Shown: positions 151 to 5,230 of the stretch, one piece after another | How the letters are laid out: every line of letters starts with the position of its first letter | Position numbering within the stretch: the first letter of the stretch is position 1 | Assembly: GCA_040753875.1 (NCBI GenBank) | Contig: JBFMDV010000031.1 | Location: 1-60,845, forward strand | Length of the DNA: 60,845 nt | Origin: Candidatus Zixiibacteriota bacterium | GTDB lineage: Bacteria > Zixibacteria > MSB-5A5 > GN15 > FEB-12 | Direction of reading: 5' to 3' | Translations under genes and position numbers: made by a program | Notes under the pieces: generated by a model | The model's input: the letters and a program-made list of their open reading frames with translations, nothing else | Told to the model about the DNA's origin: nothing | Database searches by the model: none

Positions 151-2268
151 TTGGGCGAGTACTATACACCCGATTGGATTGCGGACTTGGCATTAGAGGC
201 GATAGAATACAAGGGTGGGAGTATTCTCGATCCAGCCTGTGGCTCCGGGACATTTCTTATGGCAGCGATTCGATTTCTGCGAAGTAAAGGGCTTCGCGGG
301 TCCAGGCTGGCCACGCAGGTTTTGGACTCGGTTCTGGGAATCGATGTACACCCTCTGGCCGTTATGATGACCAAGGCAAATATTGCTTTGGCTTTGGCGG
401 GGGAAATCAAAGGCCTTGAGAGAGAGGTATATCTTCCCGTATATATGGCAGACACTCTTTTGGTTTCAGAGGATCCACAAAAGCGAGCCGTCGGAATTTC
501 CGTTTCAGAAGCAGAGAGCTTTCACATTCCTCTGGAGACAATGTCTCGTACCGGTAATCTCGACAGGCTGATAGACAAATTGGCGCTTGTAGCCGAGCGC
601 TCAGCTCATAGCGAAGAAGCGATGCGGAGTGGCTGGAAAGGCTTCGAGCGTAGCGCGCTGAAAGGATGTTCTGATCACGAAGTGTTCCTATGGAGACAGA
701 ATTTCAAGCTCTACGCCAAGCTGCTTAAGCAAAAACGGGACACTATCTGGACATTTGTGCTCAAGAACGCATACCGACCGGCGTATATTCGTAAGCGCAA
801 GGTCGATTACGTTGTAGGTAATCCACCCTGGCTTTCATATAGGTATGTTAAGGATACTAACTACAGGCGAGTGATAAAAGACTTAACCTTTACTCTAGGC
901 CTTCTCGATCGAGCGAGCGTGAAGCTTCTCACGCAAATGGACACAAGCACGCTCTTCTTCGCATACAGCGAACTCAATTTTCTCAAGCCCGGAGGGGTCA
1001 TAGCGTTCGTTCTCCCCAAGACTACTATATTGCCGGCGAAACAACATCTCAAGTTCCAGATGCGCGGCATGTCGGAGGTACACGACTTCTCGGATGTCAC
1101 GCCTCTCTTCAATGTCCGGTCTGTCCTGATTATTCGAGAGGGACTGGAGAGCAAAACAAAAGGAATTCCCGTTGTGCGCTATTCGGGACAACTGCCGACC
1201 AAGAACATGCCTCTGGCTTCAGCAAGAGCGTCCCTGACTGCAGCGAAGGCAACATTGGCGTTCTCCACAAACGACGTCCGACCCTCACCATATTACAGCC
1301 GGTTTCTGCAGGGCGCTACGATCGTACCTCGATGTTTGTGGTTCGTCCAACCGGACAAAGAGGCTGCTCAACACAAGGAGATACCGTTTCTTGAGACCAG
1401 CGATGAGGCATTCGAAGAGGCAAAGGATCAATGGCGAAAGCGAATCGAGGGTAGGGTTGAGAAAAGATTCCTTTTCGAGACTGTTCTCGCCAAGGGACTA
1501 CTCCCCTTCGCACTAGTGAGGAGAGAAATGGTCTTCCTCCCAATCGTCAAGGCAAAGCGGTCATTCTCCTTGGCGGATTCAACGGCCCTCGCAGAACGTG
1601 GCTTTCAACATGCAGCGGACTGGATGAGCAAGACTGAAAAACTCTGGGAAGAGGGCAGACAATCTGATGACCGGTCATTGCTCGATTGGCTTAATTACAA
1701 CCAAAAGCTGGCCAATCAAGACATCGACGCACCGCTTGTGGTCTTGTATAATACCTCGGGTACGAACCTCACAGCTGCACTACATGATAGTGCTACAACA
1801 AAGGGTAAGCTATCAGTGTCTCCCAGCTTTGTCGCTGACGCTAAGACGTATTACTACTACCCAAAGGGGATAGATGAGGCGGACTATCTTTGTGCTGTGC
1901 TCAATTCCGACGTCGTGAACGGTATGATCAAAGAATACCAGCCGCAAGGTCTCTACGGGGAACGTGACATTCATCGCAGACCATTTGAGGTCTGTGCCAT
2001 TCCAGAGTATGATTCAAAGGACAAGGTCCATCTGCATCTTGTAGAACTCGGTAAGAAATGTCGTGAGGACATTGTTCCATTCGTTCCCAACCTAAGCGGG
2101 AGGCTTGGACAGGTTAGGCTTGATGTGCGGAAGATTCTCAAGTCTGATATTTCCAGGATAAACAAGCTTGTCAGAAAGTTGCTCTCAGCCGCCGGTCAGA
2201 AAGTGACGGATGACTTTATCGGGGCAGGATCTGTGAAAAATGGCGAGCTTTTCGGAAAAGGCGAATGA
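151..2268 (+). pseudogene. N6-adenine DNA methyltransferase of type IIG/Eco57I style, N-terminus missing
   Basis: Predicted SAM-dependent N6-adenine methylase of a restriction-modification or BREX-like system. With TTG 151 as residue 1, GEYYTP is at 2-7, the SAM-binding motif DPACGSGTF at 27-35, an acidic GIDVHP strand after it, and the catalytic NPPW at 224-227. In large methylases of this class GEYYTP normally follows a helical N-terminal region of some hundreds of residues. Here the matching frame (..RHSLGEYYTP) is open only back to base 103 and then meets stops at 100 and 31, directly beside the transposase tail. No ATG or ribosome site precedes it. I infer that an IS630-type insertion or rearrangement removed the start. 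The remaining C-terminal part (target recognition region to residue 705) is uninterrupted, so the break may be recent. No nuclease motif or partner gene is seen. Confidence 0.7.
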
Positions 2269-2365
2269 CCAACCTTTTCAATGTATCGCCTGATTTTCTC
2301 TGGTCCCGAGAATTCCAGTCGTGCCGTCAGGCGTCCCCACCTTACGGTTTTCACGAACAAGACGG

Positions 2366-2389
2366 GTGCCGGGCGACAACGCCCGACAC
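2366..2389. repeat. Intergenic hairpin, GTGYCGGGCG type
   Basis: GTGCCGGGCG pairs with CGCCCGACAC across a 4-base loop (10 pairs, one mismatch). It lies between the methylase and the end of the peroxiredoxin gene. The hairpin at 15043-15066 (GTGTCGGG...CCCGACAC) is clearly related, so this is a dispersed element; it could also serve as the peroxiredoxin terminator, although no T-run follows. Confidence 0.6.
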
Positions 2390-2414
2390 CACAGTAAGTA
2401 CGCACCCTTGACCG

Positions 2415-3011
2415 TTAAGGCTTCCAGACGTCCGCCACTTTGCCCACGAGACCCGGGCCCGGTTTGAGCGTCTCCTTGCCATGCTGCCAACCGGCCGGGC
2501 AAACTTCGTTGCCGCCGGTCTCACGCACTTTCTGGAATCCGCGAATCTGACGAACCATCTCAGGGATATTGCGCCCTACAGGAGGCGTGAGTATCTCCGC
2601 GGCCTGGATGACACCATCCGGATCGATGATAAACCTCCCGCGGATATCCACATTGGACTCATCATCATACACACCATACAGCTTGCCGATATTGCCGCCG
2701 GTGTCGGAAAGCATCGGATACGGCACGCCATTGGGGATGAGCTTGAGCAGTTCGTGTTCTTCCCAGCTCTTGTGAACGTAAACCGAATCCACCGAGCAGA
2801 CCATGATGCGGACATCGAGGTCGGTCAAATGTTTGTGCTGAGCGGCGACCGCCGCTAATTCGGTGGGTCAGACGAACGTGAAGTCACCCGGGTAGAAAAT
2901 CAGCAAAACCCAGTGACCGAGATGGTCGGACAGCTTGGTGGTTCCGAACAGTCCTTTCTGATAAAACGGCGCGCTGAACTCCGGCGCCCGTTTGCCGACT
3001 TGTACAGCCAT
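2415..3011 (-). CDS. Selenocysteine-containing 2-Cys peroxiredoxin (AhpC/Prx1 type, in-frame TGA = Sec48)
   Basis: Thiol/selenol peroxidase reducing hydrogen peroxide and organic hydroperoxides in the cytoplasm. ATG at 3011 has a strong AGGAGG 5 bases upstream. The frame runs 198 residues with one internal TGA at 2868-2870 (codon 48), exactly where the Prx1/AhpC active site FTFVCPTE has its peroxidatic cysteine: the sequence reads FYPGDFTFV-U-PTEL. The resolving cysteine is present in VCPAGW (Cys171), and VCSVDSVYVHKSW matches the family. Total length is normal. Right after the TGA is a perfect hairpin with a GGTC loop (2841-2856), placed like the E. coli fdhF SECIS. The alternative is a sequencing error or dead gene, but a stop at just this codon plus a SECIS is hard to get by chance. 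The Sec machinery is not in this window. Confidence 0.9.
2841..2856 (-). promoter_or_regulatory. Bacterial SECIS element of the selenoperoxiredoxin
   Basis: On the minus strand AGCGGC-GGTC-GCCGCT forms a perfect stem with a GGTC apical loop. The first loop G is nucleotide 18 after the UGA. Established features of SelB-binding bacterial SECIS are a small apical loop starting with G, about 16-37 nt after UGA; E. coli fdhF uses a GGUCU loop at about the same distance. The hairpin sits within coding sequence (codons for LAAVAA). Confidence 0.85.
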
Positions 3012-3157
3012 TACTTCCTCCTGCCATGTTTTTTCTTCAAATGAACCAGTTCATCGATAATGCGCGGAGTCCCGAAATGCAAGTCCCGGACATCTGGTTC
3101 TCCGCCGCCACGATGCTGACAACAAGAGCTCGGGTGCGAGAGTTCCCTGACCGCCTA

Positions 3158-5230
3158 TCAACGCGGTGTGGAATCAGGGCCACCAAATGCCGGCAGCCAT
3201 TCTCTCAGGCCAGGGTGCTTCGCGACCTGTACTCGAACCTCGGCGCTGTCCAGACCCTTCTCGACTGCCCGACGATAGTTTAGTGCTGCAGGCGAGTATT
3301 CACCACGCGCGGCTTGAATATCCGCAAGTTCCTTGAACATCACGCCGGTGGCGTCGTTTTTGCCGGTCGCCGAGCGAAGGTACCGCTCGTAGTCGGCGGC
3401 ATCTCCCTCTTCACGGCAGATATTTGCAAGGAAGTAGTACGGTTTGGACATTTCGGGGTTGAAGGCGATAGCCGCCTCGCAGTGGCGTTTCCCTTCCTCT
3501 TTGTGTCCGGACCACCAGAGTGCGTACCCAAGCGCCGTGTTGACATTGGGATTGCGCGGCGCCAGACCGTAAGCGGTCTCAAGTACGGTAATTGCACTAT
3601 CATACTGCCCCAGCCGGTTCAGCATCTGACCGAGATATACATATGAGGGCGCAAAGTACGGATTCAGATCGATAGCGGCACGATACCCTTGCACGGCCTC
3701 GGCGTTCCTTCCCTGATGTCCCAGGGCATCGGCCTGCTCCAGCGCGGCCTGCTCGGGATAGCTGTTCCAAAGTTGGAAAATCTCGTCCGCGGTGTGTGGA
3801 TCGTTGTGCTCAAGGTAGTAATTGCGGAGTGTGAGCAGCACGTTTTTGTTTTTGATCGGATCAAGGGCAGCGTATGCCCGGATCTGTTTGAGTCCCTCCG
3901 ATGGCAATGCTTGTGTGGCGACCCGCGGACCAAGTGACAACAGGCCGAGTGTCACGACCAAAATCATAGTCGGTACGGTGTGCGGAGAACGAGTGCGGCT
4001 GTCGTTGAGCCAGTAGAAACCGGCAACTACAAGGGGGATACCAGCGAAGGAAAACAGGTCCCAATCGCGGGGCATACCGAGTTTTGGGTCAATGACAAAC
4101 GATGCCACTCCCGCGCATATAAGTAAGATCGTCAGAAAGCGATACTCGCGGTGTGCGAATAGACGCCCGGCTGATGTTGCCGACAGCGCCGCCAGGATGA
4201 CCGCAACTCCCGGCAGATGTGTAAGTATCAGATTCAGCCAATCCACCAGATGCGCCCATGAGAACAGCGTGTACCCCTCGACAGTGAACCGATGAGCCAC
4301 TGGGGACACGAATGCCAGACGAAAAAAGAAATCGGTCGCAAGGAAATACGCGATCAAGCCCACAACCGGAGCAACGGCCAGTGACCCATACAGGACTTTC
4401 TTCGACCTGCTCAGTGCGCGGATCCGATTCCCAAGCTGCGTGCCGCTTAACAGAGCGTAAAGTACTGCTGGTACCAGGATAACTGTCAGGATATGCAGAA
4501 ACAATCCGAACGCCAGCATCGGTATGAGCCAATAGCGATTCATCCTAATGTGCAGTGCCAAGAGTCCGCCCAGAACGAGCGCCCCCGCAGCGACACTAAA
4601 CAGCGAATAATGTTCGACATAGCCGAAGTACAGAAGCATGAACCCGCCTGTGGCAACTCCTGCGAGAAATAGGAGGCGGCTGCGGTTATTATCGAACAAG
4701 GACCAGGCACCGACCGCGATCACTAACAGGAACAGGACCCCAGCGGCTATCGAGATTATCTGATACGCCACAAGCGCCCGCTCGGGAGCCGTGCCGGTGA
4801 GAGCTGAAAAAAGCAGACTGTGAGCCAGCGTCTCGCCGATTTCGCGGTACATGATGTCCGGGTTGGGTGATACCAGTGTGATCAACTCAAGATAACCGTC
4901 TCCAAGGAAATGAGTCTGCGTGCGAAACAGATAAAAGAGGATCCCCGCGCAGGCGATTGCGAACGATGCGGGAATGATGTAATGCTTGAGAGAGTGAGCT
5001 ACACCAGAGCGAACGGCGTTGTCGCGCGCGAGCCAGTTCCCCCATCTCCATACGGCTGCGCCTACTGCAAACCCGACTACAAGGAGACCGATCCGCAATG
5101 TCAGGGGAAACCAGGCCCAGATATTCAACCCCCAGGCACGACTCTCCGGGAAGAACGAGGCTGTGAAGAATCCCAACACGGTAAGCGAATACGCCATAAG
5201 CACTCGTGCGGGGATCGGCGAGCGCGACAT
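3158..5230 (-). CDS. Polytopic membrane protein with C-terminal TPR repeats (paralogue of 22668-24755)
   Basis: Integral inner-membrane protein of 690 residues. About the first 450 residues form a series of hydrophobic segments. The rest is soluble with tetratricopeptide repeats, for example NPYFAPSYVYLGQMLNRLGQ and NPNVNTALGYALWWSGHKEE. Distinct motifs are THFLGDGYLELITL (an acidic loop as in GT-C glycosyltransferases), FGYVEHYS and KLGMPRDWDLFSFAGIP; all recur in the paralogue at 22668-24755 as THFLGDGYTLISL, FGYVENYA and KLGMARDWDLFSYAGIP. It starts 3 bases after the stop of the upstream GT-C-like gene, so both are probably one transcript with lpxH. A role in envelope glycan or lipid assembly is inferred from context only. 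Confidence 0.75.
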   Translation of the reverse strand: MSRSPIPARVLMAYSLTVLGFFTASFFPESRAWGLNIWAWFPLTLRIGLLVVGFAVGAAVWRWGNWLARDNAVRSGVAHSLKHYIIPASFAIACAGILFYLFRTQTHFLGDGYLELITLVSPNPDIMYREIGETLAHSLLFSALTGTAPERALVAYQIISIAAGVLFLLVIAVGAWSLFDNNRSRLLFLAGVATGGFMLLYFGYVEHYSLFSVAAGALVLGGLLALHIRMNRYWLIPMLAFGLFLHILTVILVPAVLYALLSGTQLGNRIRALSRSKKVLYGSLAVAPVVGLIAYFLATDFFFRLAFVSPVAHRFTVEGYTLFSWAHLVDWLNLILTHLPGVAVILAALSATSAGRLFAHREYRFLTILLICAGVASFVIDPKLGMPRDWDLFSFAGIPLVVAGFYWLNDSRTRSPHTVPTMILVVTLGLLSLGPRVATQALPSEGLKQIRAYAALDPIKNKNVLLTLRNYYLEHNDPHTADEIFQLWNSYPEQAALEQADALGHQGRNAEAVQGYRAAIDLNPYFAPSYVYLGQMLNRLGQYDSAITVLETAYGLAPRNPNVNTALGYALWWSGHKEEGKRHCEAAIAFNPEMSKPYYFLANICREEGDAADYERYLRSATGKNDATGVMFKELADIQAARGEYSPAALNYRRAVEKGLDSAEVRVQVAKHPGLREWLPAFGGPDSTPR

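Follow-up and report, generated by a model that had tools for sequence, protein, structure and literature searches.

A selenocysteine codon at the peroxidatic position

A minus-strand gene in the window (the whole 60,845-nucleotide stretch of DNA analysed, from a Candidatus Zixiibacteriota bacterium) encodes a peroxiredoxin (Prx) with an in-frame TGA at the codon of the catalytic cysteine. The locus raises the question of whether this TGA is read as selenocysteine (Sec) and, if so, what kind of enzyme results and how its catalytic cycle is completed. Our reading, to which we assign a probability of roughly 95%, is that the gene encodes PrxU, a Sec-containing 2-Cys-type peroxiredoxin: SelB-directed insertion of Sec48, reduction of peroxide, resolution by Cys171 and recycling by a thioredoxin-type reductant. 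The gene and the signals around it are as follows.

2415..3011 (-), prxU coding sequence, 198 aa with Sec48 (direct reading; NCBIfam NF040737 and Pfam AhpC-TSA matches)
2868..2870 (-), selenocysteine codon 48, TGA, at the peroxidatic position (direct reading; aligned TGA in 110 homologues)
3017..3022 (-), Shine-Dalgarno sequence AGGAGG, 5 nt upstream of the ATG (duplex energy -10.3 kcal/mol)
2365..2390 (-), terminator-like hairpin of 11 pairs (9 G-C), 3' of prxU (consensus match only; tail partly T)

Direct reading gives an ATG-to-TAA frame of 198 codons (minus strand, 3011-2415), in which no in-frame stop precedes the terminal one except the TGA at 2868-2870. From end to end the frame aligns collinearly with the PrxU family, and FYPGDFTFV-U-PTEL is the peroxidatic motif of AhpC/Prx1 peroxiredoxins, with TFVU corresponding to the TxxU of the family. 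An earlier note on this DNA had described a full-length gene with a good ribosome site, in which TGA replaces the catalytic cysteine and which automatic annotation would truncate. Each of these points was borne out, the last by a mechanical ORF caller that restarts at TTG-62 and yields a 137-aa ORF (2415-2828).

The gene converges with that of an Eco57I-type N6 DNA methylase (151-2268, plus strand), and a gene for a membrane protein with TPR repeats (3158-5230, minus strand) lies 146 bp upstream on the same strand. No obvious redox partner is adjacent to prxU among the flanking genes of the window. A search for a sigma-70-like promoter of prxU found none; this consensus may not fit the promoter type of the host phylum.

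SECIS hairpin and comparative evidence

2841..2856 (-), bacterial SECIS hairpin AGCGGC-GGUC-GCCGCU (bSECIS constraints; loop covariation)

The hairpin that the earlier note had pointed out, whose loop opens with a G 18 nt past the UGA, was located at 2856-2841. It starts after 11 nt downstream of the UGA and agrees with the bSECIS constraints, having a 6-bp stem, a 4-nt GGUC loop with G first and 17 nt between UGA and loop. Its minimum free energy is -10.5 kcal/mol, compared with a bSECIS energy limit of -7.5 kcal/mol (PMC13188914 Fig. 2). When the one sequence was folded, the 50-nt hairpin stretch alone was no more stable than its shuffles (z -0.48), and single-sequence folding was rejected as proof of a SECIS because the result is not significant. 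Among the 3309 codons of six neighbouring ORFs, only 24 (0.7%) are followed by a comparable hairpin (at least 6 bp and a GU-containing loop, at the UGA-loop distance seen here).

The evidence that is decisive beyond chance comes from comparison. In the first set of loci, 110 of 115 homologues (a few entries being one gene met in two collections) have TGA at the codon aligned to Sec48, by which a sequencing error at 2868-2870, named beforehand as a possible refutation, is excluded in practice. The genomes of the relatives are mostly metagenome assemblies, and the counts given here and below are of related sequences. Of the 101 different sequences downstream of the UGA, 51 have the tetraloop AGUU, 48 GGUC, one GGUA and one GGUU. 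The two varying bases, which form the N1-N2 pair in the bSECIS model (PMC13188914), are also third codon positions of Ala/Thr/Ser and Val; their joint switching therefore reflects selection on the RNA rather than on the protein. At least 10 switches between AGUU and GGUC are required on the protein tree. Stem pairs likewise vary with compensation, as at pair 15-24 (GC 74, AT 17, CG 4).

Selenocysteine machinery of the source genome

The source genome (3.29 Mb in 39 contigs, listed completeness 100) was searched for selA, selB, selC and selD, a check that had been proposed for this gene, and all four are present. The tRNA-Sec scores 64 bits, above the Rfam threshold, and has the anticodon TCA; the genes for SelA and SelB adjoin each other on the contig that also carries it. 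Two further in-frame TGAs stand at expected positions, one at the active site of SelD itself (CAGUASK) and the other in a formate dehydrogenase alpha homologue (QARIUHSS) that scores below the equivalog cut-off. On these sequence data, SelB-dependent Sec insertion in prxU is strongly supported.

Family membership

The window protein scores 323.9 bits against NCBIfam NF040737 (peroxi_PrxU; curated cut-off 270) and 169 bits against TIGR03137 (AhpC), far under the cut-off of 272. It also matches Pfam AhpC-TSA, and solved 2-Cys Prx structures are homologous to it (E 1e-41). With bacterial AhpC and typical 2-Cys Prx1 it shares the fold family, PxxxTxx(C/U) and the C-terminal EVCPAxW, although those enzymes have a peroxidatic Cys and no SECIS. 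An alignment with known PrxU proteins, suggested earlier as a check, gave 59% identity to the type member from Eubacterium (Peptoclostridium) acidaminophilum (NZ_CP007453.1 357087-357809), which belongs to the same NCBIfam family and has Sec at the peroxidatic position and a SECIS at equal distance, with an AGUU loop.

The PrxU family has been known since 2001, when the E. acidaminophilum protein was reportedly described by Soehling et al. The window gene adds no new kind to this established selenoprotein. Sec-containing Prx is a standard entry of selenoprotein surveys (PMC1794560, PMC9312934, PMC13188914). Our search for literature on PrxU in Zixibacteria found none, and the sole match for Zixibacteria and selenocysteine concerns marine Deltaproteobacteria. 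The PrxU cut-off is exceeded in 52 of 132 genomes of the same phylum. The gene, which standard gene calling cuts short, offers a clean selenoprotein call that can be checked, from a phylum that has been little studied and in which PrxU is common.

Sec arises once in the protein tree, where the window protein belongs to a 15-gene Sec clade of its own family (SH-aLRT 99). Within the Sec clade as a whole its terminal branch is the longest (0.64 versus a median of 0.12), and for this reason some relaxation is possible. The observed basis of our reading is a UGA at the homologous catalytic codon, a SECIS with covariation, a complete Sec machinery and membership of the PrxU family.

Resolving cysteine

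2898..2900 (-), Ile38 codon (Cys in 127 of 130 Sec-encoding relatives)
2499..2501 (-), Cys171 codon, canonical C-terminal resolving position (direct reading and alignment)

Cys171 of the window protein stands in NEVCPAGW, corresponding to the EVCPxxW of a resolving cysteine. In the alignment of PrxU homologues, this cysteine is present in 41 of 45 Cys forms but absent from 86 of 130 Sec forms. The intact Cys171 that the earlier note had cited as support is in place; as a typical trait it did not hold, since approximately two-thirds of Sec-PrxUs are without it. Cys38, ten residues before Sec, shows the opposite distribution (127 of 130 Sec forms versus 0 of 45 Cys forms). An N-terminal arm of about 36 residues, carrying a conserved GC-A/G-R/K-PTG motif, is a further feature of most Sec forms. 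This arm (NF040737 profile positions 2-34) is common but is not required by the curated cut-off, and so was not treated as defining. It is translated, because the codons for its conserved Gly, Cys, Pro, Thr and Gly differ mostly in the third base. In the enlarged set, Cys38 is found in all 134 arm-bearing Sec genes, and the Sec genes without Cys38 (the window gene, L197/L204 and the second copy in L240) are all arm-less. These patterns of arm, Cys38 and Cys171 are correlations within a set of related sequences and do not test function.

The NF040737 match begins at profile position 35 in the window protein. An extended arm for the window gene was considered and rejected, because the upstream frame is closed 13 codons before the ATG and contains no GCxRPTG motif upstream of 3011. 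About 15 other Sec-PrxUs likewise have no arm. The window copy is atypical in having no arm, Ile38 in place of Cys38 and a retained Cys171, whereas the type PrxU has the arm (GCARPK), Cys38 and Ala171. These atypical cysteines led to two family-wide patterns that are testable in the cultured type organism. The first is the loss of the classical resolving Cys, coupled to a Sec-specific Cys38 and a Cys-containing arm.

A Cys-form PrxU-like protein (L069/L207, G132; JdFR-76, Deferribacteres by its record) is 63% identical to the window protein and resembles it in the C-terminus VGKVADVWKP, the absence of an arm, the presence of Cys171 and the lack of Cys38. It differs in that TGT encodes the Cys and the SECIS loop is missing (GGCCATTGCC), though its genome encodes SelA. 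Ile38, Cys171 and the shared C-terminal end prompted the idea of an independent Cys-to-Sec origin of the window copy. This idea was rejected, given the position of the copy within the Sec clade of its own family and the single change to Sec.

UGA might be read through and yet give a 1-Cys-type (1-Sec) enzyme, in which an external thiol resolves Sec48 and Cys171 is dispensable. Because two-thirds of Sec-PrxUs, including the type member, have Thr, Met, Ala or Val at this position, Cys171 cannot be indispensable to the family at large, in which resolution must often use something else; the arm Cys, Cys38 and an external thiol are the candidates. In the window copy, however, Cys171 persists within the usual E-V-C-P-A-x-W motif and the arm Cys and Cys38, the alternative resolving cysteines, are both gone; we consider a 1-Sec mechanism unlikely here. 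In the 2-Cys-type mechanism that we prefer, SelB would deliver Sec-tRNA-Sec at UGA48, guided by the downstream hairpin; Sec48 would reduce H2O2 or an organic peroxide and become a selenenic acid; Cys171, most likely that of the partner subunit, would attack this to form a selenenylsulfide; and a thioredoxin-type reductant would restore the enzyme. From the family we infer that this cell inserts Sec, that the protein acts as a peroxidase, and how Cys171 and the reductant take part.

Regulated competition at the UGA could instead give two products, a 47-residue peptide at low selenium and full-length PrxU with selenium. Such competition is, as established knowledge, a general property of UGA/Sec decoding; nothing specific to the window points to it, and the sequence offers no hint of a function for the 47-residue fragment, making this a very improbable account of the gene. 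Least credible of all is that a gene for a cysteine peroxiredoxin here carries a genuine stop or a sequencing error and is a pseudogene or misread, because the long branch and the loss of the relatives' arm, which would suit it, are set against the aligned TGA in 110 homologues, the covarying SECIS loop, the full Sec machinery and a collinear frame with no further in-frame stop.

A second in-frame start in related genes

The second family-wide pattern is a conserved second start site. An in-frame start lies within six codons of the Prx core in the 106 arm-bearing genes, ATG in 104 and GTG in the other two, and is preceded in 99 (93%) by a Shine-Dalgarno match of -6 kcal/mol or lower. By the same criterion, such matches occur in 16% of the remaining linker windows of these genes and before 10% of internal Met codons. 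Sites of equal strength precede the arm starts (93%), where the best start within 16 codons was picked. In a later set from another phylum, the core site reached -8.7 kcal/mol or better in all 25 new arm-bearing genes. The type gene (L209 2887-3609) shows both ribosome sites, tatGGAGGtggctatATG and aaaAGGAGGagATGTCTATG.

The mean energy at the core start is -10.3 kcal/mol, versus -5.9 kcal/mol after synonymous-codon shuffling. Gene by gene, the synonymous-codon test was weak (10 of 106 genes at 0.05), because AAGGAGGT is easily produced by the codons for Lys-Glu-Val. A stronger argument than this test is that the core ribosome site keeps a similar spacing although it falls in different reading frames and over differing amino acids (79, 15 and 1 genes).

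The AGGAGG of the window gene corresponds to the internal site of its relatives, which lies inside the open frame before the second start. This suggests that arm-bearing PrxU genes may make two isoforms, of which the window gene would retain the short one only. Should ribosomes use the second start, the long and short versions of PrxU would be two isoforms, and what separates them would not be a matter of annotation. The published E. acidaminophilum PrxU, reportedly of 203 residues with Sec47, would be the short form. Our literature search, in papers available without subscription, a set to which Soehling 2001 does not belong, returned nothing relevant on an internal start or an N-terminal extension of PrxU.

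A more general proposal can be put forward tentatively, with the balance slightly against it: PrxU may generally be two nested proteins per mRNA, a long form with the Cys-containing arm and an internally started core. In most members, the arm Cys and/or Cys38 would have taken over from Cys171 as the Sec partner. The window gene would then be derived, having lost the arm and Cys38, kept Cys171 and come to start only at the former internal site.

In the type prxU and about 130 related loci, arm-bearing genes have their conserved second start, with a strong Shine-Dalgarno sequence, in frame about 36 codons past the first. Several loci depart from this arrangement. Two Sec-PrxU genes, in L052 (G119) and L240 (G164), have a hydrophobic, signal-peptide-like N-terminus in place of the arm; L052 keeps the internal ribosome site and could yield exported and cytosolic forms, and L240 contains two tandem Sec-PrxU genes. 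In L194 (G086), a GCARPT arm is fused straight to the Prx core, and the usual linker and internal start are missing. As to genomic context (L209 and L210), the type prxU sits on the 809-kb replicon EAL2_808p beside an Mrp/NBP35 ATPase gene, and a Chloroflexota plasmid copy also lies near NifB/NifX-type, ATP-binding and DUF59 genes.
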